A stretch of DNA of 38,421 nucleotides from Planctomycetota bacterium (GTDB lineage: Bacteria > Planctomycetota > Phycisphaerae > UBA1845): positions 1 to 38,421 of the forward strand of contig JAJRPG010000070.1 of assembly GCA_024280855.1 (NCBI GenBank). Direction: 5' to 3'. The notes beneath the pieces are model-generated. The model searched no databases. It was not told the DNA's origin and saw only the letters and a list, made by a program, of their open reading frames with translations. Shown here one piece after another: positions 10,601 through 38,129 of the stretch (positions are counted from its first letter, which is position 1; each line of letters begins with the position of its first letter). The position numbers and the translations under genes were made by a program.

Positions 10601-10753
10601 TTGCTTTACACTAGCACTTACATCCCGGCGTGGCTGTGGATTGAGGCGTTCTTAGGGCGATTAACCATTACCTATCGCGTTGCCAGTGACACGATGGAGA
10701 CCTATAGGAAAAAGCAGACCGAATTAGCCGATGACCTCAAACGAAAACATTAA
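10601..10753 (+). CDS. possible small ORF overlapping the start of the cytochrome gene
   Basis: An open frame of 50 codons beginning with TTG and ending in TAA at 10751-10753. The peptide has a hydrophobic/aromatic start (YTSTYIPAWLWIEAFLG) and a charged, helical end (METYRKKQTELADDLKRKH). It overlaps the start of the cytochrome b gene by 23 bases in another frame. There is no ATG before residue 31 and no clear ribosome binding site, so it may be a remnant of a longer gene. It could also be a small subunit co-translated with the cytochrome. Weakly supported. Confidence 0.25.
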   Translation: MLYTSTYIPAWLWIEAFLGRLTITYRVASDTMETYRKKQTELADDLKRKH

Positions 10754-12632
10754 CATAAATCCCGCGCATTCCCCGCTTACCAAGGTGGCATACTTACGAC
10801 GTAGCTGCCTATTGGCAATAGTCGTTTTGTTTGTCATCGAATTTATTACTGGCGTACTCTTAATGTTGCATTACGCTCCAGCCGTCCAAACTGCTTGGGG
10901 CAGTGTGTGGCATATTCAAACCCAGGTGCCAAGCGGCTGGCTGATTCGCGGGCTTCATCATCATACTTCCAATGCGCTTCTTGTCGTGGTCGTTTTATAC
11001 GCGGCTCTGTTATTGTTTCAGCGAGCCTATATCGGAAGCCGAGCCTGGGTTTGGCGGTTGACGTGGGGATTACTGTTGCTGGTCGCGGCTATGTCGTTGA
11101 GCGGTTTTCTTTTGCCTTGGGACCAGTGGGCGTATTGGGGGACGCAGGTTCGCGCTAACATTCTTGCGACGACGCCATATGTCGGCAGTGCGATGCGCGA
11201 TTTGCTGCTGGGCGATGATGGTTTAGGCCAAGCTTCTCTGACCCGGTTTTATACTCTTCATATTATAGTGCTTCCCTTACTAGCTATATTGCTTTTAGTT
11301 GGGATTTTGACTGCCCGCAGATGGTTGGTTCGCGGTGACGAGACGTTGAACGAATCAAAGAGCAACGGTTCATGTTGCTGTGGCTTAACTGTTGGTGACG
11401 TATTGGTCGTAGCTATGTTTGTCGCGGGAGTTTTGGGCTGGACTTACTACGCGCATGAGACGCTTGGATGGACTCTGCTGGATGCCCCGGCTGACCCAAC
11501 TGCTTCGGACTACCCTGCGCGGCCGGAATGGTACGCACTTTTTCTATACCAATGGCTAAAGTATTTTGTCACGCCAAACGCTCAGGTTGTTGGGGCTATC
11601 GTCCTTCCTTCGATGGCATTTGGCGCGATCATGTTGGTTCCAAACTTTGTGAAAAACGCATCTCGAAAATTTCGCCATATGATCGTCGTGCTAGCCATGG
11701 CGATAGGGGGACTTGCTGCCGTTGCCTTAACTGTAGTTGCTCTGCAGCATGATCTTGAGCCATCTGTCCAAGCTGTCGCTGATGCGAAACGAAGAAGTGA
11801 AGATGGTGGCGAGATGACGGCGGAGGACAAAAGCATCTTGCGTGCGGCTACGTTTCATGAACAGCTCCGTTGGGCGAATTGGGTTTCGAAGCGTTCGTTC
11901 GAGTTGGCGAATGAACATGGCATCCCCGTGGAAGGGCCATTGGTGATGCTCGCGCGTGACCCGCAATTGCAAGGGCCTAAATTGTTCGCTGCGCATTGTG
12001 CATCGTGTCACCGTTATGACGGGCATGATGGCCGTGGGCGCATGTTGGATGAGCCAGCCACCTCATCAGACTTAGTGGATTTTGGTAGTTTCGAGCGGAT
12101 TCGAGGTTTCCTTCGGGAGCCTATGCACCCGCAGTATTTCGGACTTATGAAAAAAGCAGACGGCGAGCCTGCGCATACCAAAATGCAGCGATGGTTGGAG
12201 GCGCAGTTGGAAGATTGTGAAAATGAAGCTGAGCGGAATGCGCTTGAATCAGAGCTGGACGATGTAGCTAGATTCCTGGCGGAACAAGCTAATGCGCATG
12301 AATCGACATCCAATAAATCAGCGGACGGTTCTGGTCTGGAAAATGTTACCGATAAAAGTAAAGCCGTTGAACGAGGACGACGCGCATTTATGGCGTCGTG
12401 TAATGAATGTCACTCTTATCAAGGGCAGCGAAGTGGCACTAGCAAAGCGCCGGAACTATTCGCCTATGCTTCTTGGCGGTGGATTTTCGATATGATTAGT
12501 GATCCTAGCCAGGATTCGCTCTATCGTTCGCGTGGGCGTGAGCCTGCGCAGATGCCTTCGTTTCAGGATACACTAAGCGAATCTGATCGAAAGTCCCTGG
12601 CCATATGGCTTTCCGGGAGCAGCGGGCGATAG
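10731..12632 (+). CDS. cytochrome b fused to two cytochrome c domains
   Basis: A 633-residue membrane redox protein. Residues 25-200 match the N-terminal cytochrome b/b6 domain: helix A (VVLFVIEFITGVLLMLHY), helix B (RGLHHHTSNALLVVVVLY), helix C ending LLPWDQWAYWGTQV, and helix D (FYTLHIIVLPLL). The C-terminal cytochrome b part follows with PEWYALFLYQ, the Qo-site PEWY motif, and about three more helices. After about residue 380 the chain is extracytoplasmic with two heme c sites: CASCH (423-427) and CNECH (557-561). His76-78 in helix B and His177 in helix D supply the bL ligands. The bH positions, 14 residues further on each helix, are Tyr90 and Gly191/Ile192. No Rieske gene is adjacent. Fusion of cytochrome b with c domains is known from Planctomycetota respiratory complexes; it likely oxidises quinol and passes electrons to its c hemes. 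Confidence 0.9.
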   Translation: MTSNENININPAHSPLTKVAYLRRSCLLAIVVLFVIEFITGVLLMLHYAPAVQTAWGSVWHIQTQVPSGWLIRGLHHHTSNALLVVVVLYAALLLFQRAYIGSRAWVWRLTWGLLLLVAAMSLSGFLLPWDQWAYWGTQVRANILATTPYVGSAMRDLLLGDDGLGQASLTRFYTLHIIVLPLLAILLLVGILTARRWLVRGDETLNESKSNGSCCCGLTVGDVLVVAMFVAGVLGWTYYAHETLGWTLLDAPADPTASDYPARPEWYALFLYQWLKYFVTPNAQVVGAIVLPSMAFGAIMLVPNFVKNASRKFRHMIVVLAMAIGGLAAVALTVVALQHDLEPSVQAVADAKRRSEDGGEMTAEDKSILRAATFHEQLRWANWVSKRSFELANEHGIPVEGPLVMLARDPQLQGPKLFAAHCASCHRYDGHDGRGRMLDEPATSSDLVDFGSFERIRGFLREPMHPQYFGLMKKADGEPAHTKMQRWLEAQLEDCENEAERNALESELDDVARFLAEQANAHESTSNKSADGSGLENVTDKSKAVERGRRAFMASCNECHSYQGQRSGTSKAPELFAYASWRWIFDMISDPSQDSLYRSRGREPAQMPSFQDTLSESDRKSLAIWLSGSSGR

Positions 12633-14958: not shown

Positions 14959-15594
14959 TCAGCATTCGCGCATCACGCCGATCAGCACGCCTTGGATTTT
15001 TACGTTGCGTGAATAGATCGGTTTATATTTCGCGTTGGCTGGCTGTAAGCGGACGCGGGTTTTTTCTTTGTAAAAGCGTTTGAGCGTGGCCTCATCGCCG
15101 TTGATAATCGCCACGACAGTATCGCCATTCTTGGCATTGCTCCGCTCTTCGTAAATGACAATGTCACCGTCGCAGATGTGGTCTTCGATCATGCTATCGC
15201 CGGTTACGCGGAGCGCTCGCACGGGATATCGACGGTCGAACATTTCTTCAAAGTCGAGAAAATCCGGCGTTTCGATGGCTTCGACTGGCAGACCAGCCGC
15301 AATGCGCCCGACCAGAGGGATGAGCGTAGGCCTTTCGTCAGGAAGATCCACCCGGGCAGTTAAGTCCAAAGAGCGTGCCTTGTTGGACTGGCGGGTGAGC
15401 ATTCTTTTTTCGAGCAGAAGTTCGACGTGTTCGAACACGGTGATTTTGCTGATGCCGAGTTCGTCGGCTATCTCTTGCAACGTCGGGGAATAGCCAAGGT
15501 TCCGCCTGCCGTCTCGAATCAGGGTTAAGATTTCGATCTGCCTCGGTGTTAAACAACGAGCTTCGTCGGTTTGTGCTGCTTTGCGGCGAGCCAT
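14959..15594 (-). CDS. lexA: LexA-type SOS repressor
   Basis: A 211-residue repressor of DNA-damage response genes. Residues 14-70 form the winged helix (LTPRQIEILTLIRDGRRNLGYSPTLQEIADELGIS), the LexA DNA-binding domain. The self-cleavage bond is Ala100-Gly101 in RIAAGLPVEAIE. The catalytic dyad is Ser134 (TGDSMIEDHICDGDIVI) and Lys172 (EATLKRFYKE). The ATG at 15594 has a strong GGAGGA ribosome binding site. An in-frame extension to 15927 exists but lacks homology to LexA and was not used. A direct repeat GTTC-N7-GTTC and a sigma70-like promoter lie about 400 bases upstream, before an overlapping ORF, indicating an autoregulated operon. Confidence 0.95.
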   Translation of the reverse strand: MARRKAAQTDEARCLTPRQIEILTLIRDGRRNLGYSPTLQEIADELGISKITVFEHVELLLEKRMLTRQSNKARSLDLTARVDLPDERPTLIPLVGRIAAGLPVEAIETPDFLDFEEMFDRRYPVRALRVTGDSMIEDHICDGDIVIYEERSNAKNGDTVVAIINGDEATLKRFYKEKTRVRLQPANAKYKPIYSRNVKIQGVLIGVMREC

Positions 15595-15952
15595 GCGAAT
15601 CCTCCGTGAATGGTTGCAAGCCCAATGGGCCAAATGCGACCAGTGGCAAGTTTTGTGGCAAATCGCCACGAGATATTTTTTCATGTAACAATCGAACGCG
15701 AGCGGTTTCCTGTTTGGCTGAACCAAACAAAGAGGCCAAGATGGCGAACCAACTAAGCGACGCCCGTTTAGACTGGGCAGAAGCAGTGGGGCGGGCAGGG
15801 AACGCTTCTTCAGTAATCCTACAGCTAGGCGCTTGACCAGCGATAGCCGGTTGGGAAACAAGGGCGCTGCGATAATCTCCGCCAGGACCGAACACGCACA
15901 AGGGAAGCTCGCTAAGGTGCGAGGCATTTGGTTGTGCGATACTCATGGACAT
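15338..15952 (-). CDS. unknown protein encoded upstream of and overlapping lexA
   Basis: A 204-codon frame starting at an ATG preceded by GGAGGA at 8-base spacing, itself preceded by another AGGAGG. It is the first frame behind the promoter and putative LexA box. Its last 257 bases overlap lexA in another frame. Residues 1-120 look coding: an internal repeat LPLCVFGPGG (16-25) and LPLVAFGPLG (102-111), and a hydrophobic or amphipathic stretch SLSWFAILASLFGSAK (65-80). Residues 120-204, inside lexA, are Arg/Ser/Gln-rich and look like an antiframe product. I cannot assign a family. Position suggests an SOS-induced gene; small SOS proteins encoded next to lexA in other bacteria can be division inhibitors, but that is only an analogy here. 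Confidence 0.4.
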   Translation of the reverse strand: MSMSIAQPNASHLSELPLCVFGPGGDYRSALVSQPAIAGQAPSCRITEEAFPARPTASAQSKRASLSWFAILASLFGSAKQETARVRLLHEKISRGDLPQNLPLVAFGPLGLQPFTEDSHGSPQSSTNRRSSLFNTEADRNLNPDSRRQAEPWLFPDVARDSRRTRHQQNHRVRTRRTSARKKNAHPPVQQGTLFGLNCPGGSS

Positions 15953-16290: not shown

Positions 16291-19200
16291 TTACTCACAT
16301 AGCCCGCCTTGCGGCGGCACGCACGTTCCCGTTAGGCAATCTGTTACGCCCAGGCCAAATGGCTCAGCTGCAAAGGCTTGCACAGCGCGTAACACGTCCG
16401 CGCCGGCTGACACTATTGTGTTAGGTACTGCGTCTGCGTTATCCACTCGAGCAACGATTGGCGCATCGGGATCAAGTTGGAACTTTTTCACTACGGCTAC
16501 GATGTCACCAGAAGTGACCAGCCCATCAGGCATTGTCCATTCGCCGCCAGTAAAAGCACCAACCACATCGCCAAATTGGCGACCTGCAGCAAGTTGTGGT
16601 GGGGTGGTTGAAATAAATAATGGGGTTGTAAATGTTGAACCATCATCTGACATTGATATATTGTACATGTTGCCTGGAACGATGCTGCAACCGCGAACAT
16701 GAAGACCAGTCGTTACACCGCTCATATCGCAGTAGTACGTGGTATCACCGGCAGCGGGTAGTGGGCCATCGATAAGTCGCGCATACCAGCCGTCGGGGCC
16801 AAGATTGGTTAGCGAGGTGCAATCAACATATTTATCCACCGCGCTACCTATACGAGTTACACGCATAGCTACTTCTGTAGCACTATTGGCACTTGGATCC
16901 ATAGAAATGTAACGATCCTTACTAAATCCATGTTCACCGGTTAGCCCCACCGGCGGCAATATTACAAAGGGTCTACAAGCAAATCGTACATGTAGCTGCG
17001 ACTGACCTTGAGCAGCGTCATTGACATTAGGTACGATTGCAGCACTATTCGACACCCAGCCACCGATGCGAATCGTAATTTCCTGATCCTGCTCGACATT
17101 GAATGCAGGTATTTCGGAAACTGTCCCGAATGATCCACAAGAATCGTCATTGCATTCGATGAGCGTGGGGGCAGATGGGTCATTGCCATTAGGGCAAGCC
17201 GTGTATGCCGCCATCATGGCATCATAGACGCCGCCACCACACATTGTTGCGCTCATCTTACCATTGCACGGTGCAGTAACCTTCCACCATACATCTGCAC
17301 GGAATGGTCCACCGCCATTATCTGAACCTGAACAGTCGTCTATCACATTCGGATTGTTCTGGGATGGTGGGCCATCAGTAGTCGCGAAACGATTGTCCGT
17401 AGGTTGTATTTCGCAATCATATTGCAACGTAGATTCTATAGCATTATCATCCAAAATCGGAATACAAAGACCATTACCACCTGCGCACTGCAAAAATAAT
17501 GGACTGCACCAACGTGATTTATTCTTGGCGCAATTACCAACATCTGTTGTGGCCGTACATGCTGCCGGGGCGATTACCGTAGCACTGGTCACGCAGTCGT
17601 CATTGACTGGCGGTTCGCAGATATGCGTACCACCAGCATCGGGGCAAGAGACACCGGTATACGCAATTCCATTTAGGCCATTATCAACAGGGTTCAATAT
17701 ACATTCATATAATGTGACATTACTGGTGCATAGTATGGCTCCGGTGTTATACCGATAGCAGCAAGCGAATGTTCCGGTTTTGTCACCACAGCCGCCGTCT
17801 ACGCCTTCATTGCCAACGGTGTTCTTCGCCATGCCGCTATCAATACAAAATGCGCGGTCATTTTTTACCAGATTAGAATCGACATAGGGGACTGGCTGAC
17901 TAGTCCTGGCGTGTACAGACCATCCATTACCATCCTCGGATTCTGATTCAGCTCCTTGGCCAGCAGAGGTATCCGTATAGAACCAGTTCCAACTACAAGC
18001 CTCGCTATTCAAGTTGCCACTGCCTTCGCCCAAAATTTCAATCCAGTAGCAGTTTCCTGCGGTCAGACCTGTAATACTAACCGGCGCGGAGTAAGAAGTT
18101 GGCTTAAATCCCGCCTGTAAGTTGGTGATCGTTCTTCCATCGTGGGTGATGAGCTGTTCCGGGCCAACGACAATCGCATTTATGTCCGGCAGGCCGTTAC
18201 CGTCATCTTCGTAGATGGTTAGATACCAGGCGGAGTCTGGCGGGTTATCGTTGCAGTTCACGCCGGCTTCTGTGCCGCCCCACACACCTGACCAGCAGAT
18301 ACGATTGATCGTGCCTGACAAGGGGATAAAATCATCAGCGGCTCGAATGTTATGATGGCGATCTGACGTATCGGAAATTGAGGCAAAGTCATTTTGGCAG
18401 TCACTGTTAGTGTCCAATGGACATGCTGGACAAGGCACGCCCAAAGCTAAACAATCTCCCCGACAGCCATCACATTCGATGTTGTTGCCATCGTCGCATA
18501 CTTCCACACCGCAAACGACTCCGTCACCGCAGCCGGTTTCGATTAATAGGCAATCACTACTGCATCCGTCACAGTCGATATTGTTACCGTCGTCGCAGGC
18601 TTCGCATTGATCGAGTATGCCATCCCCGCAAGTGGAGACTATGGAAGAGAAATATAAATAGGCGGCACCATGTTGAAAACTGATGGCATTGTCTTCGGGC
18701 GAACCAATTAAAGCTACCTCACCATCGATTGAAACGGATTGGCCAAATGCGGCACGGTTCGCCGTAGTGGGTGTTGGAGTAAGTTTGGTCGTTTGACCCC
18801 AATTGTCTGCACCCCCTTGGTTACGCTGAAAGATATATGAAGAGCTGATATTATTGTTGTCCCCGCTTGCACCTACTAAAGCAATGTCGCCACTTATGGA
18901 TACGGAAATTCCAAAAAAGTCTTGAATATTACCGTCTGATGCGGTAATTTTTGTCACTTCGCCCCAGTTGTCAGTTCCGCCGAAGTTGCGGCTAAATATA
19001 TAAGCCGCGCCGGGATTGAATTCAGTTATGTTAAAGCTTGCTCCGACAATGGCTGTGTTGCCGTCGATTGAAACTGAACTGCCAAAACCCAAAGATGTGT
19101 CAGAGGCTGTGAGCTTGATCACTTCACCCCAGAGGTCCGTACCGCCTTGGTTGCGATGAAAGATGTAGGCTGATCCGGATTCGTTACCAGCGTCATCGTC

Positions 19201-19968
19201 ACGCCATGCACCTACAATGGCTATATCTCCACTGATCGAGACGGATTTGCCGAAATAGTCATTAAATGCAGCATCGGAGGCAGTGAGCTTTGTCACTTCC
19301 CCCCAGTTGTTCATCCCGCCCTGGTTTCGCTGAAAGATGTATGCCGAGCCAGAGGCAGAACCTGCGTCATCGTTAAACCACGCTCCGACTATGGCGGTAT
19401 CACCGTTAATGGAGACGGAATTTCCAAATAGATCAGCTGTTGCAGCATCGGACGCTGTGAGCTTGGTTACCTCACCCCAATTGTCAGTCCCGCCTACATC
19501 TCGCTGAAAGATGTAAACGGAGCCGGAGTTGTCACCATCGTCATCGTTCAGGTCTGCTCCGACAATAGCCGTGTCGCCGTCAATCGCTACTGAAATACCA
19601 AATCTGTCAGTATTCATCGCATCGGACGCGAGGAGCTTCGCTACCTCGCCACCGCTATTTGTAACGCACTGTATGCCATCAAAGATGTAGGCCGCACCTG
19701 TGCCATCTAAAGGAGGCGAGCCAATAATCGCCGTGTCTCCGCTGAGTGAGACAGAACTACCAAAAAAGTCACCTGACGTTGTGTCGGAAGCAATAATCTT
19801 TACCTCCGCATCGAAGAGTGGGGCGAATGTGGAAGCGGCGGGCGCTTGCTGATCGGTGTTAGTTGCGCTAATTATGTGGTTATCAATAACTGGCGGCACG
19901 GCTAATGTTGCACTGCACACGACCCAGGATATACAGGCCGCATTGACCGCTAATTGTATCAACTTCAT
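16291..19968 (-). CDS. large secreted FG-GAP beta-propeller protein with DUF4215 repeats and shared C-terminal module
   Basis: A 1225-residue exported protein. After the signal peptide (MKLIQLAVNAACISWVVCSATLA) come seven FG-GAP-like repeats of 50-60 residues, each with 'LTASDA....FG.SVSI.GDTAIVGA....GSAYIFQRN'; seven copies fit a complete seven-bladed propeller. Next are Cys-rich DUF4215-type repeats (CGDGILDQCEACDDGNNIDC and CGVEVCDDGNNIECDGC), then about 450 residues of beta-rich sequence with many Cys. The last 230 residues (from LTGEHGFSKDRYISMDP to CVPPQGGLCE) form a module shared with two neighbouring secreted proteins. No IPTL tail, lipobox or LPXTG is present. The ATG at 19968 has GGAGGA upstream. 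Probably a surface or extracellular adhesion or binding protein; ligand unknown. Confidence 0.85.
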   Translation of the reverse strand: MKLIQLAVNAACISWVVCSATLAVPPVIDNHIISATNTDQQAPAASTFAPLFDAEVKIIASDTTSGDFFGSSVSLSGDTAIIGSPPLDGTGAAYIFDGIQCVTNSGGEVAKLLASDAMNTDRFGISVAIDGDTAIVGADLNDDDGDNSGSVYIFQRDVGGTDNWGEVTKLTASDAATADLFGNSVSINGDTAIVGAWFNDDAGSASGSAYIFQRNQGGMNNWGEVTKLTASDAAFNDYFGKSVSISGDIAIVGAWRDDDAGNESGSAYIFHRNQGGTDLWGEVIKLTASDTSLGFGSSVSIDGNTAIVGASFNITEFNPGAAYIFSRNFGGTDNWGEVTKITASDGNIQDFFGISVSISGDIALVGASGDNNNISSSYIFQRNQGGADNWGQTTKLTPTPTTANRAAFGQSVSIDGEVALIGSPEDNAISFQHGAAYLYFSSIVSTCGDGILDQCEACDDGNNIDCDGCSSDCLLIETGCGDGVVCGVEVCDDGNNIECDGCRGDCLALGVPCPACPLDTNSDCQNDFASISDTSDRHHNIRAADDFIPLSGTINRICWSGVWGGTEAGVNCNDNPPDSAWYLTIYEDDGNGLPDINAIVVGPEQLITHDGRTITNLQAGFKPTSYSAPVSITGLTAGNCYWIEILGEGSGNLNSEACSWNWFYTDTSAGQGAESESEDGNGWSVHARTSQPVPYVDSNLVKNDRAFCIDSGMAKNTVGNEGVDGGCGDKTGTFACCYRYNTGAILCTSNVTLYECILNPVDNGLNGIAYTGVSCPDAGGTHICEPPVNDDCVTSATVIAPAACTATTDVGNCAKNKSRWCSPLFLQCAGGNGLCIPILDDNAIESTLQYDCEIQPTDNRFATTDGPPSQNNPNVIDDCSGSDNGGGPFRADVWWKVTAPCNGKMSATMCGGGVYDAMMAAYTACPNGNDPSAPTLIECNDDSCGSFGTVSEIPAFNVEQDQEITIRIGGWVSNSAAIVPNVNDAAQGQSQLHVRFACRPFVILPPVGLTGEHGFSKDRYISMDPSANSATEVAMRVTRIGSAVDKYVDCTSLTNLGPDGWYARLIDGPLPAAGDTTYYCDMSGVTTGLHVRGCSIVPGNMYNISMSDDGSTFTTPLFISTTPPQLAAGRQFGDVVGAFTGGEWTMPDGLVTSGDIVAVVKKFQLDPDAPIVARVDNADAVPNTIVSAGADVLRAVQAFAAEPFGLGVTDCLTGTCVPPQGGLCE

Positions 19969-20068
19969 TTTCTCAATCCTCCAAATCATGCATTTAGCGA
20001 AATGCTAACATCCGAGATTTTCCGAACCACATGGTCGTCCTTTACTGCTGAAAAGGGCCTCACCATAG

Positions 20069-21820: not shown

Positions 21821-24800
21821 TTATTCGCATTCACCGCCTTGAGGTGGCACACAAGTTCCCGTCAGACAGCCAGTCACGCCATAGCTAAACGGCGTAGCAC
21901 TAAAGGCCTGCACCGCACGGAGTACATCACCGGCGAACGACACGATTGTGTTTGGCACAACACCTGCATTATTGACTCTGGCAATAATTGGCGCACCAGG
22001 TGCAGACTTGAACTTTTGCACTACGGATACAACGTCAGAGCCTGTGACTAATCCCTCCGGCGCCGTCCAGGTGCCGGCAATAAAAGAACCAGCTACATCG
22101 CCGAATTGACGACCAGCTGCAAATTGTGGTGGCGTGGTGTCTATTGGGAAGTCGGGAGTGAAAATTGAGCCATCAATAGTAAATGCTACATTGTAGGTGT
22201 TTCCAGGAATAATGTTGCAGCCTCTGACGTGTAGTTCTGGAACACCGTCCATAATACAGTAATAAGTCATATCGCCGGGGGCGGGTAATGGGCCATCGAT
22301 CAACGCAGCATACCAGCCATCTGCGCCGAGGTCGGCCAGAGAGGCGCAATCTACATATCTCTCTGTCGTGCTGCCTACTCGAGTAATACGTATGGCTATG
22401 GGACTTGGGCCGTTAGAAGTTGGATCAAATGATATGTAACGATCTTTGGTAAATCCAGCTTCGCCAGTTAGCGATGCGGGCGGTAATACGCATTCGCCTA
22501 AATCGTGCTGGCAGCCGAGTGCGAGGTCACAAGAATCAACCGAACATGCCATACCATCGTCACAATTATTTTCTAATTGGCAGTCTTCAGAACAACCATC
22601 ACAGTGGTCATTGTTGCCATCGTCACATGATTCGCATTGATCGAGAATTCCGTCTCCACAGTTGAGTACAGTAGCTGAGCAGTCATTATGGCAACTGTCG
22701 CAGTTGTTGATGTTGCCATCGTCACAGGCCTCACCTGCAGTAAAGTTTAGAATGCCGTCTCCACATATCACATTTGTACAATCGATATCGCAGGTAGCCG
22801 ACTCACCGCCATCGTCACACTCCTCGCCCGCATCTGTAATGTCATCACCGCAGAGTACTGTAAAGTAGACGTACGCAGCGCCTGCTTCTATGGCGCTGTT
22901 GTCGTCTTGGTTCCCATTGACGCCCGTTGTGATGCTCTCCTCCTGGAACGCCCCGACCACTACCGTGTCGCCGGACACAGACACCGAGTGTCCAAACCGG
23001 TCTTGTGTACCGGTGTTGGACGCCTTGAGGTAGTCCTGTTGGCTCCAGACACCACCGTCTCGGACAAAGACATACGCCGCACCAGCTTGTTGGGCGTCGT
23101 TGTTTGATTCGTTTCCGCCGTTGACGCCTGTGGTGGTGCTGGCTTCGCCACGGGCCCCGACTACGACCGTGTCATCGGACACGGCCACCGCGTAGCCAAA
23201 CAGGTCGTTTTTATTAGTGTTGGACGCCTTGAGGTAGGCCTGCTGGCTCCAATCGCCGATACCATCGCGGACGAAGACATACGCCGCGCCGGAAGCGTTG
23301 AAGAGGACGTCGTTGTCCTGGTTCCCGTCGACGCCCGTGCCGTTGCTGGCCTCAATGTAGGCCCCGACCACTACCGTGTCACCGGACACGCCCACAGAGT
23401 AGCCAAATCGGTCACTTGTATCGGTGTTGGACGCCTTGAGGTAGGCCTGCTGGTTCCAATTGCCGAAGATATCGCGGGCGAAGACATACGCTGCTCCGGA
23501 AGCGGGCTCGTTGTTGTCGTTCTGGTTCCCGTTGACGCCCTTAGCGTTGCTGTCCTCCCCAAAAGCCCCGACCACCACCGTATCGCCGGACACGGCCACC
23601 GAGATGCCAAGCTGGTCACTTGGACCAGGATTGGACGCCTTTAGGTAGGCCTGCTGGACCCAGACGCCACCAGAGATGCGTACGAAGACATACGCCGCAC
23701 CGGAATCGCCTTCCATGTTGTTAGTCGCGATCCCGTTTTCGCTATCCTCCAACCGCGCCCCGACCACCACCTTGTCGCCGGACACGGCCACTGACCAGCC
23801 GAACTGGTCACTTACATCGGTGACGAACGCCTTGAGGTAGGCTTGTTGGCTCCAGACGCCAGCACCATCTCGGACAAAGACGTACGCCGCGCCGGAGTCA
23901 ACGACGGGATTGTCGTCGTCCTGGTTCCCGTTGACGATCGTGGCGGCGCTGTCCTCCAAATGTGCCCCGACCACAATCGTGTCACCAGACACAGCCACCG
24001 AGAAGCCAAAAAAGTCAGCTCCATCGGTGTTGGACGCCTTGAGGTAGGCCTGCTGGCTCCAAACGCCGTCGGCGTTTTTGACGAAGACGTACGCCGCACC
24101 GGCGTTATTGCGACTGTTGTCAGCCTGGTTGCCGTTGACGCCTGTGGCGTTACTGTCTTCATGCCACGCCCCGACCACTACCGTGTTGCCGGATGCGGCC
24201 ACCGAGTAGCCAAACCCATCCCCTGCACCAGTGTTCGACGCCTTGAGGTAGGCCTGCTTGGCGACGGGATCGATGGTTAGTGGGTAGCGAGCACCACGCT
24301 CGTCGACGACCAGCCTTAGGCCCGTAGCGTCCGCAACAATCCGCGCGGGAAGCACGCGCATATCCGCGTCCCAAACTTTAAGCCCGGCGTAGTTCACGAC
24401 TATGCTACCTTGCTGATTTACGAAGCTCACGCCTTGTCCGTCAGCCCGTCCCTTAGCATGCAAGCCGCCGCGCACCGCAAGTCGTAATTCCAATTGGTCG
24501 CCTGCACCCGGCGGACGACTGATCAACGTGAAGCCATGTTCCAAACCACTACGATCGTTGACGAACCACTCACGCAAGCCTTCATGCCAGTCATATGTCA
24601 CTCGATCGTTATCCGCAGTCATGCTTGCTTGGCCATTAATACTACGCTGGTGACCGGGGAAGCCGTAGCTTTGCAATTCTAATCCCCATTGCCAACCCGC
24701 ACCGTCTGGCTTAACAACAAAGCCGCGTCCGTCGAAATGGGTTAGCCATTGTTGGCCAGTGTTGCGAGCGTGGAACCCACCATCCACGGCTACGGCTGCG

Positions 24801-25045
24801 TGACGATTTTTCTCGTACACCTGGCGGATGCTATTCCAGTCTGAACCCGCCAATCCTTCGGGGACGGCGTCCTCGCTCTTTTGTGCCTCGGGTAAAATGT
24901 CACCGACTCCGGTCGCTCCTTCGTGGAAGCTAGTATTTTCGGCAGCCTTGTTGGGACTGGCGGCCTCAGCGGAAGCGGTTCCCTGCGATACAACTACTAG
25001 AGCGACCACGCTGGCGACTAAGACTATTAATTGGTTCAACTTCAT
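21821..25045 (-). CDS. secreted FG-GAP beta-propeller protein with DUF4215 repeats and shared C-terminal module
   Basis: A 1074-residue exported protein, paralogous to the one at 16291-19968. A signal peptide (MKLNQLIVLVASVVALVVVS) is followed by a beta-rich N-terminal domain of about 200 residues (for example RQVYEKNRHAAVAVDGG and WQWGLELQSYGFPGHQRS). Then come seven repeats of about 65 residues with 'QAYLKASNT....FGYSVAVSGDTVVVGA..EDS...GVNGNQ', a seven-bladed propeller. DUF4215 Cys-rich repeats follow (CGDGILNFTAGEACDDGN, CGDGILDQCESCDDGNNDHC), then the shared C-terminal module ending CVPPQGGECE. The propeller repeats are also very similar at DNA level. GGAGGG precedes the ATG at 25045; the longer in-frame start has no support. 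No IPTL tail. Ligand unknown. Confidence 0.85.
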   Translation of the reverse strand: MKLNQLIVLVASVVALVVVSQGTASAEAASPNKAAENTSFHEGATGVGDILPEAQKSEDAVPEGLAGSDWNSIRQVYEKNRHAAVAVDGGFHARNTGQQWLTHFDGRGFVVKPDGAGWQWGLELQSYGFPGHQRSINGQASMTADNDRVTYDWHEGLREWFVNDRSGLEHGFTLISRPPGAGDQLELRLAVRGGLHAKGRADGQGVSFVNQQGSIVVNYAGLKVWDADMRVLPARIVADATGLRLVVDERGARYPLTIDPVAKQAYLKASNTGAGDGFGYSVAASGNTVVVGAWHEDSNATGVNGNQADNSRNNAGAAYVFVKNADGVWSQQAYLKASNTDGADFFGFSVAVSGDTIVVGAHLEDSAATIVNGNQDDDNPVVDSGAAYVFVRDGAGVWSQQAYLKAFVTDVSDQFGWSVAVSGDKVVVGARLEDSENGIATNNMEGDSGAAYVFVRISGGVWVQQAYLKASNPGPSDQLGISVAVSGDTVVVGAFGEDSNAKGVNGNQNDNNEPASGAAYVFARDIFGNWNQQAYLKASNTDTSDRFGYSVGVSGDTVVVGAYIEASNGTGVDGNQDNDVLFNASGAAYVFVRDGIGDWSQQAYLKASNTNKNDLFGYAVAVSDDTVVVGARGEASTTTGVNGGNESNNDAQQAGAAYVFVRDGGVWSQQDYLKASNTGTQDRFGHSVSVSGDTVVVGAFQEESITTGVNGNQDDNSAIEAGAAYVYFTVLCGDDITDAGEECDDGGESATCDIDCTNVICGDGILNFTAGEACDDGNINNCDSCHNDCSATVLNCGDGILDQCESCDDGNNDHCDGCSEDCQLENNCDDGMACSVDSCDLALGCQHDLGECVLPPASLTGEAGFTKDRYISFDPTSNGPSPIAIRITRVGSTTERYVDCASLADLGADGWYAALIDGPLPAPGDMTYYCIMDGVPELHVRGCNIIPGNTYNVAFTIDGSIFTPDFPIDTTPPQFAAGRQFGDVAGSFIAGTWTAPEGLVTGSDVVSVVQKFKSAPGAPIIARVNNAGVVPNTIVSFAGDVLRAVQAFSATPFSYGVTGCLTGTCVPPQGGECE

Positions 25046-25144
25046 TCTTCGACCCTCCAATTCATTCGTAGAGTGAGATACTAATCTACGCACATATCCG
25101 ATTTACATGGCTATCTTTTACCGTTGTAAAAGATTTCTCCATTA

Positions 25145-27862: not shown

Positions 27863-30130
27863 CTATGACGACGAAAGCCCTTCCTGTCTCATGCGGTTGT
27901 AACAGGCGTGGATGGCTTCGACAAATAGTTGGGCTTCCTCAATCGTATGCCTGGCTGACTCTTCAGTATAAGTTTGGCTGGCTTTGTCGTGGGCAGCGAA
28001 AAAGTAGCTGGCGAATTTTCCGCCGGCGAAGGGATCGAAGATAAGTTTCGTATCGTAATATCGCTCACGGAATTCCTCGATAATTTCGTCGGCGTCGTTG
28101 GATACGTCGTCGTATTTCATTTGCACGATAGCCTTAGCGGCTTTGAGCATGGATCTGTAAGCTTCGTCGCCAGCTTTTTGGGCGTCGTTTTCATCAAGGT
28201 GAATCTGCGATTCAAAGACCATGCGCTCTGCGTCGGTCATGGCAAATTGATAGGCTGTCACTACTTCGCCTGCGCACTCGCCTTTGCCAATGTCGCCCGT
28301 GCTATATTCGCGCGGGTCGTACCAGTCGGTGTAATAGGTTGGGTCTTGCTCATAAGTGGGGGCGTTTTGTGTGAGGTCGTGAAGCTCCTGACGAATGGCT
28401 GCCTTACCGATTCGCTTGATGAACGTCTGGAATGATTCGTCCGTCTCGCGCATGCGTAAGTAGTAGTCGGTGATGCGGTCGAGCGCGTCGGGAATACGTT
28501 TGGACGCAATCGCAATTACGGGCATACCATAAGAGCCAGCGTTATTTTCCCATTGGCCACCAAGCACAACCTGGAAGTGTGGCACTTGATAGCCATTGAT
28601 CGTGCGGCTCACACCGTAAAAGCCGATGTCCGCGACGTGATGCTGTCCGCAACTATTGAAACAGCCGCTGACTTTTACATGCAGGTTTTGAATGGCTTCG
28701 TCTAGCTTGAAACATTTTTCGTCCAGGAGTTTACGAAGGCGCGATGTTAAGCCTCTCGATGATGAGATGCCTAGCTTGCAGGTGTCGGTGCCTGGGCAGG
28801 TGACAATGTCGAGAATGTTGCATGCGCCAGCATCGCCGATGCCCGCACGACATAAGGCTTCATGCACAGCTGGTAGGTCGCTGCCGCTGACCCACCGAAT
28901 CACAAAATTTTGCTCGACGGTTGTGCGGATGGTTCCGGTAGTGAATTCTCGAAGAATGTCAGCCAATGAGCGAAGTTGATCAGCCGTTAAGTCGCCAAGC
29001 GGCAGAGCGACCGTCACCGTCGAATAACCAGCCTGACGCTGTGGCCGAACGTTGGTCTTTAGCCATTGGTTGAGTTTTTCGTTACCGTTAAGCAGAGGTA
29101 AATCGCTCGGCGGCTTCAGCGGTTTTTCGACATTGTCCTCAACGCTATTTATAAAATCTGTCCAGCGCGGATCATGTTGCAGCTTGGCCCGTTCCGCGAG
29201 AACTTCTTCTTTGAACTTATCGATGCCCCATTGTTTGATGAGAAATTTTAGGCGTGCTTTGGAGCGATTCTTTTTCTCGCCATGACGTCCGAATACTTTG
29301 GCGATAGCTTGGGCGATGGGAAGCATTTCTTCCATCGGGAGAAACTCATCGAAAAGCTTAGCCTGGAAGGGGACCGCGCCGAGTCCGCCGCCTACGACAA
29401 ACCTAAAGCCGCGCTGCTCTTTACCGTCCACCATCCTAGTCTCAGCCGTGTATCCAAAATCGTGCATCGCGGTTAAGCCGCAGGCGTGTTGAGCGCAGCC
29501 GCTAAACGTCGGCTTGACCTTGCGACCAAAGCTCTGCGCGTCTGGATGACCAAGAAGAAACTGTGTCAGCGCATCGGCATAAGGAGTGATGTCGAATTTC
29601 TCATCGGGGCAAACGCCGGCGTAAGGACATCCGGTGATGTTACGGACGGAGTTACCACAGGCTTCGCGGGTCGTGATGTTGACGGTTGCGAGTCTTCGCA
29701 TGATCGTCGGGGTGTCGTCAATGTGTATAAAGTGAAGTTGAAAATCCTGCCGCGTGGTAATGTGGCCAATGCCGTCAGAATATTCCTCAGCAAGCTCAGC
29801 CATGACTTCCAGTTGCTCAGGGTTCATGCCGCCGTAAGGAATTTTGATCCGCAACATACCCGGCGCATCCCATACGGTGTTGACGCCTTTGGTATTTTTG
29901 TCGTTGTCGTATGCGATCGTGCGGGTTTCGTTTCCGTCGTAGCGCTGCCCGTTGTCGTAGCGCTGGCCATACGCTCCTCGACGGAGTCGGGTCTCGGCGA
30001 AGATGACCTCCTCTATCTTGCCCTGACGGCGCAGCTCGATTTCGGTTTCGAAGGTGTCGATCTCCTCAGCCATTTGTGATGGCAGCTTCCCGTCGAGTCG
30101 ATCTTTCCAAAGTTCGTTGCTAGTCTTCAT
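27863..30130 (-). CDS. NirA-type siroheme sulfite/nitrite reductase with C-terminal extension
   Basis: A 755-residue cytoplasmic enzyme that reduces sulfite to sulfide or nitrite to ammonia with six electrons at a siroheme/[4Fe-4S] centre. Both half-repeats are visible: an N-terminal ferredoxin-like part (MLRIKIPYGGMNPEQLEVMA, GIGHITTRQDFQLHFI) and a second copy (YSTVTVALPLGDLTADQLRSLA). The cluster/siroheme ligands are CPGTDTC and, about 50 residues later, CFNSC in VSGCFNSCGQHH. The last 150 residues (from about 610) form a helical, charged extension (SMLKAAKAIVQMKYDDVS, EFRERYYDTKLIFDP) absent from classical NirA. The gene is divergent from the cysteine synthase gene, supporting sulfite rather than nitrite as substrate. 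GGAG precedes the ATG. Confidence 0.9.
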   Translation of the reverse strand: MKTSNELWKDRLDGKLPSQMAEEIDTFETEIELRRQGKIEEVIFAETRLRRGAYGQRYDNGQRYDGNETRTIAYDNDKNTKGVNTVWDAPGMLRIKIPYGGMNPEQLEVMAELAEEYSDGIGHITTRQDFQLHFIHIDDTPTIMRRLATVNITTREACGNSVRNITGCPYAGVCPDEKFDITPYADALTQFLLGHPDAQSFGRKVKPTFSGCAQHACGLTAMHDFGYTAETRMVDGKEQRGFRFVVGGGLGAVPFQAKLFDEFLPMEEMLPIAQAIAKVFGRHGEKKNRSKARLKFLIKQWGIDKFKEEVLAERAKLQHDPRWTDFINSVEDNVEKPLKPPSDLPLLNGNEKLNQWLKTNVRPQRQAGYSTVTVALPLGDLTADQLRSLADILREFTTGTIRTTVEQNFVIRWVSGSDLPAVHEALCRAGIGDAGACNILDIVTCPGTDTCKLGISSSRGLTSRLRKLLDEKCFKLDEAIQNLHVKVSGCFNSCGQHHVADIGFYGVSRTINGYQVPHFQVVLGGQWENNAGSYGMPVIAIASKRIPDALDRITDYYLRMRETDESFQTFIKRIGKAAIRQELHDLTQNAPTYEQDPTYYTDWYDPREYSTGDIGKGECAGEVVTAYQFAMTDAERMVFESQIHLDENDAQKAGDEAYRSMLKAAKAIVQMKYDDVSNDADEIIEEFRERYYDTKLIFDPFAGGKFASYFFAAHDKASQTYTEESARHTIEEAQLFVEAIHACYNRMRQEGLSSS

Positions 30131-30300
30131 AATATTATCGCTCCGGCCGGCGACCTTGGCTCATGCCCTCACATGGTCCATTTGCAGCCTTGCCAGTGTA
30201 TCAAATTGGCCCTCTGTTATCAATGATATGTGTGTAATCGGCGGGCGTCCGCTGAGGCTTGTGATGGAAATCCCTTGGCTAATGACCTATAGTGTCTGTT
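30131..30300. promoter_or_regulatory. divergent promoter region between the reductase and cysteine synthase genes
   Basis: The 170-base gap between two divergent starts must contain both promoters or a shared control region. I see no certain -35/-10 pair and no strong dyad. Confidence 0.35.
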
Positions 30301-31656
30301 ATGAGCAACAACCACACATTACGGATATACGACTCGATTCTCGGACTACTCTCCAACGAGGACAATCCGACGCCATTGGTGCGGCTTAACAAGGTCACAG
30401 GATTCAAACATGCCCAGGTTTACGGTAAGCTGGAGTGGTATAATCCCTTTGGTGCGGTCAAGGACCGGGTAGCGGCTAACATGATTCTCGACGCGGAAGA
30501 GAAGGGGTTGTTAGGGCCAGGGAAGAAGCTTGTCGAAGCCACTTCGGGCAATACCGGCATGGGCCTTGCGATGATGGGCAATGCCAAGGGGTATGCCCTG
30601 CGAACGCCGCTGTCCATTGCTATCCCGCTCGAAAAGAGAACTGTGTTGAAGTTTTTCGGGACCGAGGTGATTGAGTTGGATGATTCGCTATGTCCTGCGC
30701 CGGGTGCGCCGGAGGGGGCGATTGCCAAGGCGATGGAGACAGCTGACACGCAGCCTGAGTATGTGCTTTTGAACCAATATAAAAACCAGGCGAATCCTGA
30801 TAGCCATTACAAAACGACCGGGCCTGAAATCTGGCGACAGACTGAGGGTAAGGTGACGCATTTCGTCGCCGGCTTGGGAACGTGTGGCACGATTACGGGG
30901 ACGGGGAAATTTCTCAAAGAGAAAAATGAGAAGGTGAAGGTCATCGGCGTTCATCCGGAAGATGGCCACGATATTCCTGGCGTGCGTAGTTTGAGGCAAT
31001 TGCAGCAGACGGAATTGTTTGCGCCGGATAAATACGATCAGACGATTGAGGTGACTAACCGCGAGGCGTTTGATTTGTGTCTTCGATTAAATCGAGAAGA
31101 GAGCATTGTGGCTGGTCCTAGTTCCGGCATGGCGTTAGCTGGTGCGCTCAAGACAATTCCCGATGAGCCGGGGACCGTGGTGGTGATTGTTTTTCCTGAC
31201 AATGTTTTCAAATATGCCTCGTCGGTGCAAAGGTATTTTCCGAAGATTTGTCCGCCAGATAGTAAGGGTGAAAGCAGTGGGCCTACGCAGGATGAGCTTT
31301 TCCTAGCGGGCATGATGGAGAATCTAAAGAACCCACACGATTCGATTCGCGTGAGTGTTTTGAAAAAAATGTTGGAAGAAGGCAAGAAGCCGATGCTGGT
31401 AGACGTAAGGCCTGCGGAGATGTTCAGCGATAAGGCTATCGCAGGTTCGGTCAATATCCCGATGGAAGAAATCCCCGATCGAGTAGAAGATTTCCCCGAA
31501 GACCGCGACGCGCCAATTGTCATGGTTTGCGGCATCGGAAAATTCTCCAAGACCTGGACGCTATATCTTAAATCCCTTGGCTATCGGAACGTGCGCAGCC
31601 TTAAAGGCGGGATTGGAGAGTGGGTAAGGAAGGGGTTTGATACGACGGCGGGTTAG
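30301..31656 (+). CDS. cysteine synthase fused to a rhodanese domain
   Basis: A 451-residue PLP enzyme. Residues 1-320 match the cysteine synthase/cystathionine beta-synthase fold: the PLP-binding Lys54 in NPFGAVKDR, the SGNTG loop near residue 81 (EATSGNTGMG), GLGTCGTITG for the phosphate, and GPSSGMALAG. It would convert O-acetylserine (or a similar acceptor) plus sulfide to cysteine. A rhodanese domain follows (about 360-450; MLVDVRPAEMFSDKAIAGSVNIPMEEI) with the catalytic Cys410 in VMVCGIGKFSK. It could carry persulfide sulfur to or from the active site. A longer start 9 bases upstream is possible (GTG). The gene is divergent from the sulfite reductase, so together they cover sulfite to cysteine. 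Its last 111 bases recur at 34665-34775. Confidence 0.92.
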   Translation: MSNNHTLRIYDSILGLLSNEDNPTPLVRLNKVTGFKHAQVYGKLEWYNPFGAVKDRVAANMILDAEEKGLLGPGKKLVEATSGNTGMGLAMMGNAKGYALRTPLSIAIPLEKRTVLKFFGTEVIELDDSLCPAPGAPEGAIAKAMETADTQPEYVLLNQYKNQANPDSHYKTTGPEIWRQTEGKVTHFVAGLGTCGTITGTGKFLKEKNEKVKVIGVHPEDGHDIPGVRSLRQLQQTELFAPDKYDQTIEVTNREAFDLCLRLNREESIVAGPSSGMALAGALKTIPDEPGTVVVIVFPDNVFKYASSVQRYFPKICPPDSKGESSGPTQDELFLAGMMENLKNPHDSIRVSVLKKMLEEGKKPMLVDVRPAEMFSDKAIAGSVNIPMEEIPDRVEDFPEDRDAPIVMVCGIGKFSKTWTLYLKSLGYRNVRSLKGGIGEWVRKGFDTTAG

Positions 31657-36660: not shown

Positions 36661-36758
36661 CTTTAATTACTTCTGGATATTTCTCTTGGAATTGTGTAGG
36701 ATGGCTCATTCATGCTTCTATGATTGTAGGCCGTTTCGGTTCGAAAGGTGAAGAAGAA

Positions 36759-38129
36759 ATGTCATTTCGTAAGTTTGTAGCTGTAGTTCTTGTATTGGCT
36801 GTTGTTGCTTTTATATCGAGTGCGCAGGCATTGGCTCAGTGCGATATGGGGCAAAAGTTGGTGGCTTCCGACGCTTCAGGCAATGACCAATTTGGTCATG
36901 CCATTTCCATAAGTGGAAATGTAGCCATGGTTGGTGCATTCAACCAAGATGGATGTTTGGGTAGCAATTGCGGGGCGGTATATGTGTACAATTTCGATGG
37001 AAACAATTGGCTTGAAGTGCAGACATTGAAGGCCCTGGATGCGGCGTCTGGAGATAGTTTCGGACGATCCGTTTCTGTGGATGGCGACAGAGCTGTAATA
37101 GGTGCGCGCTTGGATGATTGTACTGCAGGAATAATTGATTGTGGTTCAGCCTATGTGTTTCAGTTTAATGGCACGACGTGGGAGCAGGAACAAAAACTAA
37201 CTGCCTCCGATGCTGAATCGGGGGACTTTTTTGGGGCTTCTATTTCCATGTCTGGAGATACAATTGTCGTCGGCGCTCGAGCTAAGGATTGTATGGCCGT
37301 TGCCAATTGTGGAGCGGCTTATGTTTTTCGTTTTAACGGTACAACTTGGATTGAAGAGCAAAAGCTTACCGCTCCTGATGCGGCGGCGGGCGACGAGTTT
37401 GGGCGAAGTGTTTCCACAACCGGAGGTGTCACTGTTGTCAGCTCATTTAACGATGATTGCGTAGGGCCAGGCACTAATTGCGGGTCGGCTTATGTATACC
37501 GATTCAACGGTGCCATGTGGAGCTTGGATCAAAAGCTTATAGCCTCTGACGCTGCGGATGGTGACGGTTTTGGACAGTCTGTTTCTATGGGCGGAGATGC
37601 AATTGTGGTGGGGGCAATTCTACGAAATTGCAATGCTGGTGGCGGTCGTTGTGGGGCTGCTTATGTTTTCAATTTCAATGGTGTAAATTGGATGCAACAG
37701 CAAATTCTTACACCGGCAGATGCGATTGGAGGCGACAAATTTGGACACGCCGTGTCGTTGAGTGGAAACGCGATGGTTATTGGTGCGTTTGAAAGTGATT
37801 GCGGTGCGGATATAGACTGTGGTTCAGCCTATGTATTCAGGTTTAACGGTGCCAATTGGGTCGAGCAGCAAAAGCTTTTTGCTTCCGACGCGGCATCGAT
37901 GGACAAGTTTGGGTTTTCTGTTTCCATAAGTGGAGATGCAGTTGTAGTGGGGGCGCGACTAGCTGATTGCGGCGCTATTGCAAACTGTGGCTCAGCGTAT
38001 GCGTTTCGCTGTTTGAATAACATAGCCCCCGTGCCCACACTTTCGGCATGGGGGGGAGTTACTATGGTTTTACTCACGCTGACTGTGGGGTCGTTGTTGT
38101 GGTCAAAACGCCGCGCTGCGATTATGTGA
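36759..38129 (+). CDS. FG-GAP beta-propeller protein with IPTL-CTERM sorting signal
   Basis: A 456-residue exported protein. After the signal peptide (FVAVVLVLAVVAFISSAQALA) it has seven repeats of about 55 residues with 'QKL.ASDA..GD.FG.SVS.SGD..VVGA', a full seven-bladed propeller. Each blade has a Cys pair placed 'C.....CG.AYVF' (for example DCTAGIIDCGSAYVF and DCMAVANCGAAYVF), so each could close a disulfide loop. The C-terminus is a complete IPTL-type tail: PVPTLSAWGGV, hydrophobic MVLLTLTVGSLLW, basic SKRRAAIM. It is a likely substrate of the exosortase at 6790-7443. The ATG at 36759 has AGGTG upstream; the longer in-frame start is unsupported. Its tail is repeated at 33599-33730. Confidence 0.88.
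   Translation: MSFRKFVAVVLVLAVVAFISSAQALAQCDMGQKLVASDASGNDQFGHAISISGNVAMVGAFNQDGCLGSNCGAVYVYNFDGNNWLEVQTLKALDAASGDSFGRSVSVDGDRAVIGARLDDCTAGIIDCGSAYVFQFNGTTWEQEQKLTASDAESGDFFGASISMSGDTIVVGARAKDCMAVANCGAAYVFRFNGTTWIEEQKLTAPDAAAGDEFGRSVSTTGGVTVVSSFNDDCVGPGTNCGSAYVYRFNGAMWSLDQKLIASDAADGDGFGQSVSMGGDAIVVGAILRNCNAGGGRCGAAYVFNFNGVNWMQQQILTPADAIGGDKFGHAVSLSGNAMVIGAFESDCGADIDCGSAYVFRFNGANWVEQQKLFASDAASMDKFGFSVSISGDAVVVGARLADCGAIANCGSAYAFRCLNNIAPVPTLSAWGGVTMVLLTLTVGSLLWSKRRAAIM

Follow-up and report, generated by a model that had tools for sequence, protein, structure and literature searches.

Cytochrome b of bc1 complexes has eight membrane helices, and we take the first histidine of the pairs in helices B and D to ligate haem bL and the second to ligate haem bH (bc1/b6 numbering). 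In the available portions of the open-access full-text literature, the only natural Rieske/cytochrome b case without haem bH that was found is that of the Acetobacteraceae, i.e., the "deranged" bc1 complexes of Acidiphilium and Acidocella, in which two bH histidines are likewise naturally lost (Degli Esposti et al. 2023, PMC10715153). According to the accessible part of that study, this loss is "always associated" with Rieske mutations or with the lack of a Rieske gene, and the complexes were judged non-functional. The same text considers that a bH-less bc1 complex could perform linear electron transfer like the antimycin-inhibited enzyme, citing a b6 mutant of chloroplasts in which electron flow is partly maintained, and discounts this for its own Acetobacteraceae cases, the Rieske protein being damaged too. 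In an engineered bH knockout of Rhodobacter capsulatus (H212N), bL was reported to be reduced, but antimycin-sensitive reduction of cytochrome c was not pronounced and a Qo–Qi connection was missing (PMC4330944, accessible part). In H212N and the b6 mutant the same cofactor is missing as in the proteins described below, with Qo and bL present, but these are laboratory mutants of Q-cycle enzymes, whereas the family studied here is natural and has a remodelled bH half.

The layout of this family, i.e., a Rieske protein with a cytochrome b fused to a two-haem c domain (b-cc), is shared, as far as its partial description goes, by Kuste3096-3097 of Kuenenia stuttgartiensis, which is described there as the most canonical among the three complexes of this organism (PMC12954380). 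A survey of Phycisphaerae reports bc1 in no Phycisphaerales genome and alternative complex III encoded instead (PMC11266412). No mention of the fused b-cc type was found in the accessible portions of this survey, nor of bH-less complexes in those of a quinone-site review (PMC9162462), and no biochemistry for any member of the fused bH-less family was found in the open-access literature as far as it was available.

The window, i.e., the whole 38,421-nucleotide stretch of planctomycete DNA that was analysed, belongs to a genome referred to here as G000 and carries a genuine ORF (10731–12632, + strand, as are all parts of this gene given below; ATG start) whose product of 633 amino acids joins a cytochrome b and a c domain with two CxxCH sites in one chain. 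Pfam matched Cytochrome_B (PF00033) at aa 30–191 (whole-protein E-value 8.6e-30), Cytochrom_B_C weakly at aa 253–343, and also c-type haem domains. The predicted structure, built from a 48-sequence alignment (mean pLDDT 89.1, pTM 0.86), adopts the bc1 fold over residues ~15–344 when compared with solved bc1 cytochromes b (Z ~27), delimiting a cytochrome b domain of aa 15–344 (10773–11762). The model has seven long helices able to cross the membrane, all ahead of the c domain; given the usual topology, this would place the c haems on the outer side. The protein shares its fold, bL site, Qo motif and Rieske partner with canonical bc1/b6f complexes, but differs from them in its missing bH ligands, its fused two-haem c domain and its seven modelled membrane helices.

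As claimed by an earlier sequence-only reading, the PEWY motif of the site for oxidising quinol (Qo; P265-E-W-Y, aa 265–268; 11523–11534) and the two C-terminal c-haem sites, CASCH (aa 423–427; 11997–12011) and CNECH (aa 557–561; 12399–12413), are all intact, and the latter two provide a c-type cytochrome, presumably on the outer side. Throughout the 48 sequences, the bL histidines, Pro265 and the c-haem residues (Cys423, Cys426, His427, Cys557, Cys560 and His561) are invariant, as are Met485 (12183–12185) and Met608 (12552–12554), candidate axial ligands of the c haems, while Glu266 and Trp267 occur in at least 90%. Elsewhere in the window, three proteins (16291–19989, 21821–25093 and 36720–38129) have seven reported FG-GAP_2 repeat stretches each, and a LexA-like repressor (14959–15927) has an N-terminal extension of ~120 residues (an alternative start is possible). 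A pair of nearby genes (27863–30130 and 30292–31656), one nitrite/sulphite reductase-like and the other for a PLP enzyme with a rhodanese domain attached, is suggestive of sulphur assimilation.

When aligned with four-His cytochromes b, the protein has a haem bL bis-histidine site, with His76 in helix B (10956–10958) and His177 in helix D (11259–11261), and lacks that of haem bH, with Tyr90 (10998–11000) and Ile192 (11304–11306) in place of the respective ligands. These columns confirm the loss of both bH histidines with both bL histidines kept that had been proposed from the sequence alone; the helix D partner had been given as "Gly191/Ile192", of which Gly191 lies at His+14 and Ile192 occupies the actual ligand column at His+15. 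Moreover, Leu27 (10809–10811) and Thr111 (11061–11063) replace the glycines of helices A and C that presumably pack haem bH, while their partners Gly41 and Gly125, presumably packing the bL porphyrin, are kept. The quinone-reducing Qi site at haem bH appears to be lost as well, its bH ligands and glycines being gone and the bH half poorly conserved; in the Qi aspartate column, Asp is retained in the window protein and gone from 9 of 12 rows of the bH-less clade.

A sequencing error at the ligand codons is unlikely, because the genome G001 of the same genus (72% identical) has the identical Tyr and Ile, and dN/dS between both genes is low (see below). The filling of the bH site by another histidine, such as His77 or His78, which would have spoken against the sequence-only reading, was likewise not borne out, since both positions vary among orthologues; no conserved alternative histidine was found near the bH site among these orthologues.

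Among 60 genomes (G000 included), the gene had 13 near full-length matches above 450 bits, next to a copy split across two contigs (in G012) and a C-terminal remnant (in G002, of the same genus as G000 and G001). A clade profile yielded 14 matches at E <1e-200 in 397 genomes of the class, all within the family of the window's genome. One or both bH ligands were missing in 13 of the 14 aligned rows of this own clade, and the helix D ligand was also missing from the split copy (L018). The remaining member (L010, from G028) keeps all four histidines and branches at or near the base of the clade, which thereby presents three stages, i.e., both bH histidines kept, only that of helix D lost, and both lost.

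Beyond this clade, a phylum search of 392 genomes detected the fused type in 67 of them (E up to 1e-100), and a genome scan with the clade alignment confirmed 158 loci, of which the best 80, predominantly planctomycete and verrucomicrobial, were retained. In the resulting set of 151 aligned rows, at least one bH histidine was missing from 32 (both from 18 and a single one from 14), and a bL histidine from none; since these rows are a non-random sample in which the own family and class are oversampled, no frequency of bH loss is given. The set includes three outgroup rows without a fused c domain (L001, L003 and L022). Fifteen rows were dropped for being partial, duplicate, of another type or in the wrong frame (L018, L061, L105, L111, L113, L115, L124, L127, L129, L130, L133, L135, L136, L138 and L139), and L194 (the own gene again), L183 (the same gene as L154) and L251 (partial) were also left out. 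As a control, cytochromes b of other types were taken from relatives (hand-picked from a longer list of hits, their C-termini unchecked for fused domains), and all 54 kept four histidines. Taken with the counts of 32 and zero among the 151 rows, this excludes chance.

The question raised by the sequence-only reading, whether the paired loss is conserved in homologues, thus has a split answer: the loss recurs, but in 14 of the 32 rows it is not paired. It is no quirk of one lineage either, as it is spread over planctomycetes (including L120, L125, L131 and L132, the last from a deer rectum record), Verrucomicrobia (L064, L093 and L102) and a Myxococcales MAG (L122). The packing glycines follow a similar division: the bL glycines were present in every row with those columns covered, and the two bH glycines (GG) were kept in 108 of the 119 rows with four histidines but in 4 of the 32 bH-less rows, a bH glycine being missing also in 11 four-His rows. 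In a phylogenetic sign test, ligand loss was not significantly associated with the loss of glycines (median p 0.25, range 0.06–1), so that this link rests on the raw counts.

A number of individual rows stood out. L237 and L240 (from G699, two contigs, and G666, one contig) have Gln at both bH positions, which could mark a repurposed site, and in genus g327 the helix B bH position is Gln or His depending on the genome (L236, L241 and L242 versus L231, L233–L235, L238 and L239). The b-cc protein L154/L183 (G184) has Arg at the helix D bH ligand and PESP instead of PEWY as its Qo motif, and in five verrucomicrobial b-cc proteins (L114, L123, L134, L137 and L140) helices D and E are separated by a long inserted stretch that looks hydrophobic. 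In genome family f70, which we guess to be from anammox bacteria, all 20 complete rows keep four histidines (L251 being partial).

On the tree, 11 changes of the bH ligands were needed, 8 of which were forced by supported branches. As the trees were of the "quick" kind, with SH-aLRT support and a number of long branches, the figure of 8–11 events is approximate, and gain and loss are not separable by such a count. A tree in which the own clade was made to group with that of L120, L125, L131, L132, L227 and L232 was 129 log units worse and rejected by the AU test (p 0.0009), which would fit convergence, the grouping having been picked after the tree was seen.

The loss of conservation in the closest clade was confined to one half of the membrane domain. 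Over helices A–D, mean pairwise identity among 13 bH-less clade members was 0.64 in the bL half versus 0.22 in the bH half, compared to 0.73 versus 0.64 for 58 four-His relatives and 0.80 versus 0.74 for 25 further four-His rows (20 of them from family f70). The corresponding bH/bL ratios are 0.35, 0.87 and 0.92, and it is this within-group ratio that counts rather than the levels, because the groups differ in age and make-up. In the c domain, identity was 0.52 in the bH-less clade, 0.40 in the 58 relatives and 0.62 in the further rows. Between the G000 and G001 genes, dN/dS was 0.14 over the whole gene (with dS at 1.3, nearly saturated) and 0.12 over aa 345–633; in 60-codon windows it peaked at 0.24–0.28, with the end of helix D among the highest, and fell to 0.04 at aa 121–180. 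The gene is therefore under purifying selection, least so in the bH half and some linker stretches.

The sequence-only reading had also found no adjacent Rieske gene and implied a Rieske-free route from Qo to the protein's own c haems. The former holds within the window, but on another contig of G000 (C109) a cognate, unlinked gene is predicted to encode the Rieske [2Fe-2S] partner, with its six cluster residues kept and a frame break near its C-terminus. The latter is not supported, as the family has a dedicated Rieske gene that lies upstream in most loci, i.e., immediately upstream in eight own-clade loci and upstream in 62 of the best 80 of 158 loci of the wider set (counted with a strict limit on distance, which some loci with overlapping frames or truncated contigs escape). 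In G012 it adjoins the N-terminal piece of the split b-cc copy, and in G000, G001, G011, G029 and G004 it is on a separate contig from b-cc. Furthermore, of 26 hand-picked genomes, 14 of the 15 that carry this b-cc type gave a Rieske match of at least 100 bits, but none of the 11 that lack an intact copy did (best score 43 bits), so that a Rieske-free enzyme was rejected. The exception among the 15 is G358 (85% complete), and two of the 11 (G002 and G027) have another fused type (that of L020) with its own, different Rieske protein.

A Rieske protein with all four cluster ligands and both disulphide cysteines was found for 31 of the 32 bH-less rows, the exception being L184 of G358. The joint loss of Rieske cluster and bH ligands known from the operon-encoded, alphaproteobacterial complexes of Acidiphilium and Acidocella (PMC10715153, accessible part) is therefore absent from these 31 rows. 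This removes the objection of a damaged Rieske protein raised in that study, and favours a productive one-site reductase.

Nevertheless, signs of decay were seen in the genus of the window's genome. The Rieske frame of G000 stops ~25 residues short of that of its relatives, and next to this frame break on C109 (L056, 7715–8173 and 8176–9066) an in-frame stop interrupts the adjoining M50-like gene; G001 has intact versions of both genes. This M50-like membrane gene (with a HELLHV motif, below the Pfam cut-off) lies beside the Rieske gene in four genomes (L041, 8155–8931; L178, 6318–7247; L179, 7708–8502; and L056). In G002 (contig C59; L052, 10558–11145), the b-cc remnant has one c-haem site left and no cognate Rieske gene, i.e., decay within the genus. 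The G000 copy may thus be decaying or misassembled, reflecting either assembly errors or a system being lost in this genus, and because of the G000 Rieske break and the G002 remnant the argument for function rests on the family more than on G000. The latter genome has three further four-His Rieske/cytochrome b loci (L053, L054 and L055, on contigs C12, C104 and C107); C104 carries a b6-like gene with genes for a large protein with 8 CxxCH and, judged by eye, an oxidase subunit I-like protein.

These lesions would also fit a decaying or purely structural leftover, without turnover, in which bH was lost first as dispensable for assembly (cf. Acidiphilium and Acidocella). The published "deranged" complexes and the longer branches of the bH-less own clade compared with its four-His member L010 point the same way. 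We nonetheless regard a leftover as unlikely, given that conservation is lost in the bH half alone, with low dN/dS over the whole gene and its c-domain part, invariant bL histidines, Pro265 and c-haem residues, near-invariant Glu266 and Trp267, and intact Rieske clusters in all but one of the bH-less rows. Moreover, rows with bH changes are present in single-contig genomes (G666, G469 and G449).

We instead favour, as a somewhat better than even prospect judged from these sequences, that this gene encodes the b-cc core of a complex of the Rieske/cytochrome b type acting as a one-b-haem, non-bifurcating quinol:cytochrome c reductase. The ligand columns and the lost bH glycines support what the sequence-only reading had predicted in this respect, i.e., a single b haem without a bH/Qi branch, with Qo and c haems kept. 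In such an enzyme, (mena)quinol would be oxidised solely at the Qo site, and the first electron would pass via the Rieske cluster to the two fused c haems. Since the absence of bH would close the path from bL to the Qi site, bL would serve as a temporary electron store, from which the second electron would leave later by the Rieske/c route, when the Rieske head moves again. In net terms, the enzyme would convert quinol and two oxidised c carriers into quinone and two reduced carriers, with two protons released to the outside and no uptake at a Qi site. The enzyme would thus constitute a non-bifurcating bypass able to run against a high membrane potential, working in G000 alongside the three four-His Rieske/cytochrome b complexes. 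The 14 rows that keep one bH histidine may be intermediates rather than finished one-haem enzymes.

It seems distinctly improbable that bifurcation was retained via another low-potential exit from bL, with the electron passed to a protein encoded elsewhere, to the fused c domain or to some acceptor within the remodelled cavity. The strict retention of bL and its packing glycines would be odd for a mere passive store, and the M50-like membrane gene beside the Rieske gene could be regarded as a candidate, but that gene occurs in just four genomes and below the Pfam cut-off, no conserved extra redox gene was noticed when the listed neighbourhoods were read by eye, and the c haems would lie across Qo from bH, judging from the topology. 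That haem bH is still bound through Tyr, Gln or other ligands, or that a different cofactor occupies its site, is more improbable still, for although Tyr is the commonest helix B replacement (15 of the 23 rows that lost this histidine) and two rows have Gln at both positions, each of these residues is a single base change from His, the helix D replacements are mostly non-haem-binding residues (Ile, Gly, Arg, Lys, Phe, Leu, Ala or Trp) or a shortened helix, and so few bH-less rows keep both packing glycines.

Returning to the one-b-haem reductase, there is in our estimate an even chance, based on the comparisons above, that planctomycetes, verrucomicrobia and relatives harbour a working natural class of single-b-haem Rieske/cytochrome b complexes that, judging from the tree, arose at least eight times from four-His b-cc proteins and oxidises quinol without a Q-cycle, bL being kept. 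The Rieske/cytochrome b family is regarded as defined by the Q-cycle, for which haem bH in turn counts as essential. If the bH-less complexes do work, they would show how quinol can be oxidised without bifurcation, what bL does alone and how the expected electron leak is controlled, and their close four-His relatives, in one case inside a single genus, would make a direct comparison possible.
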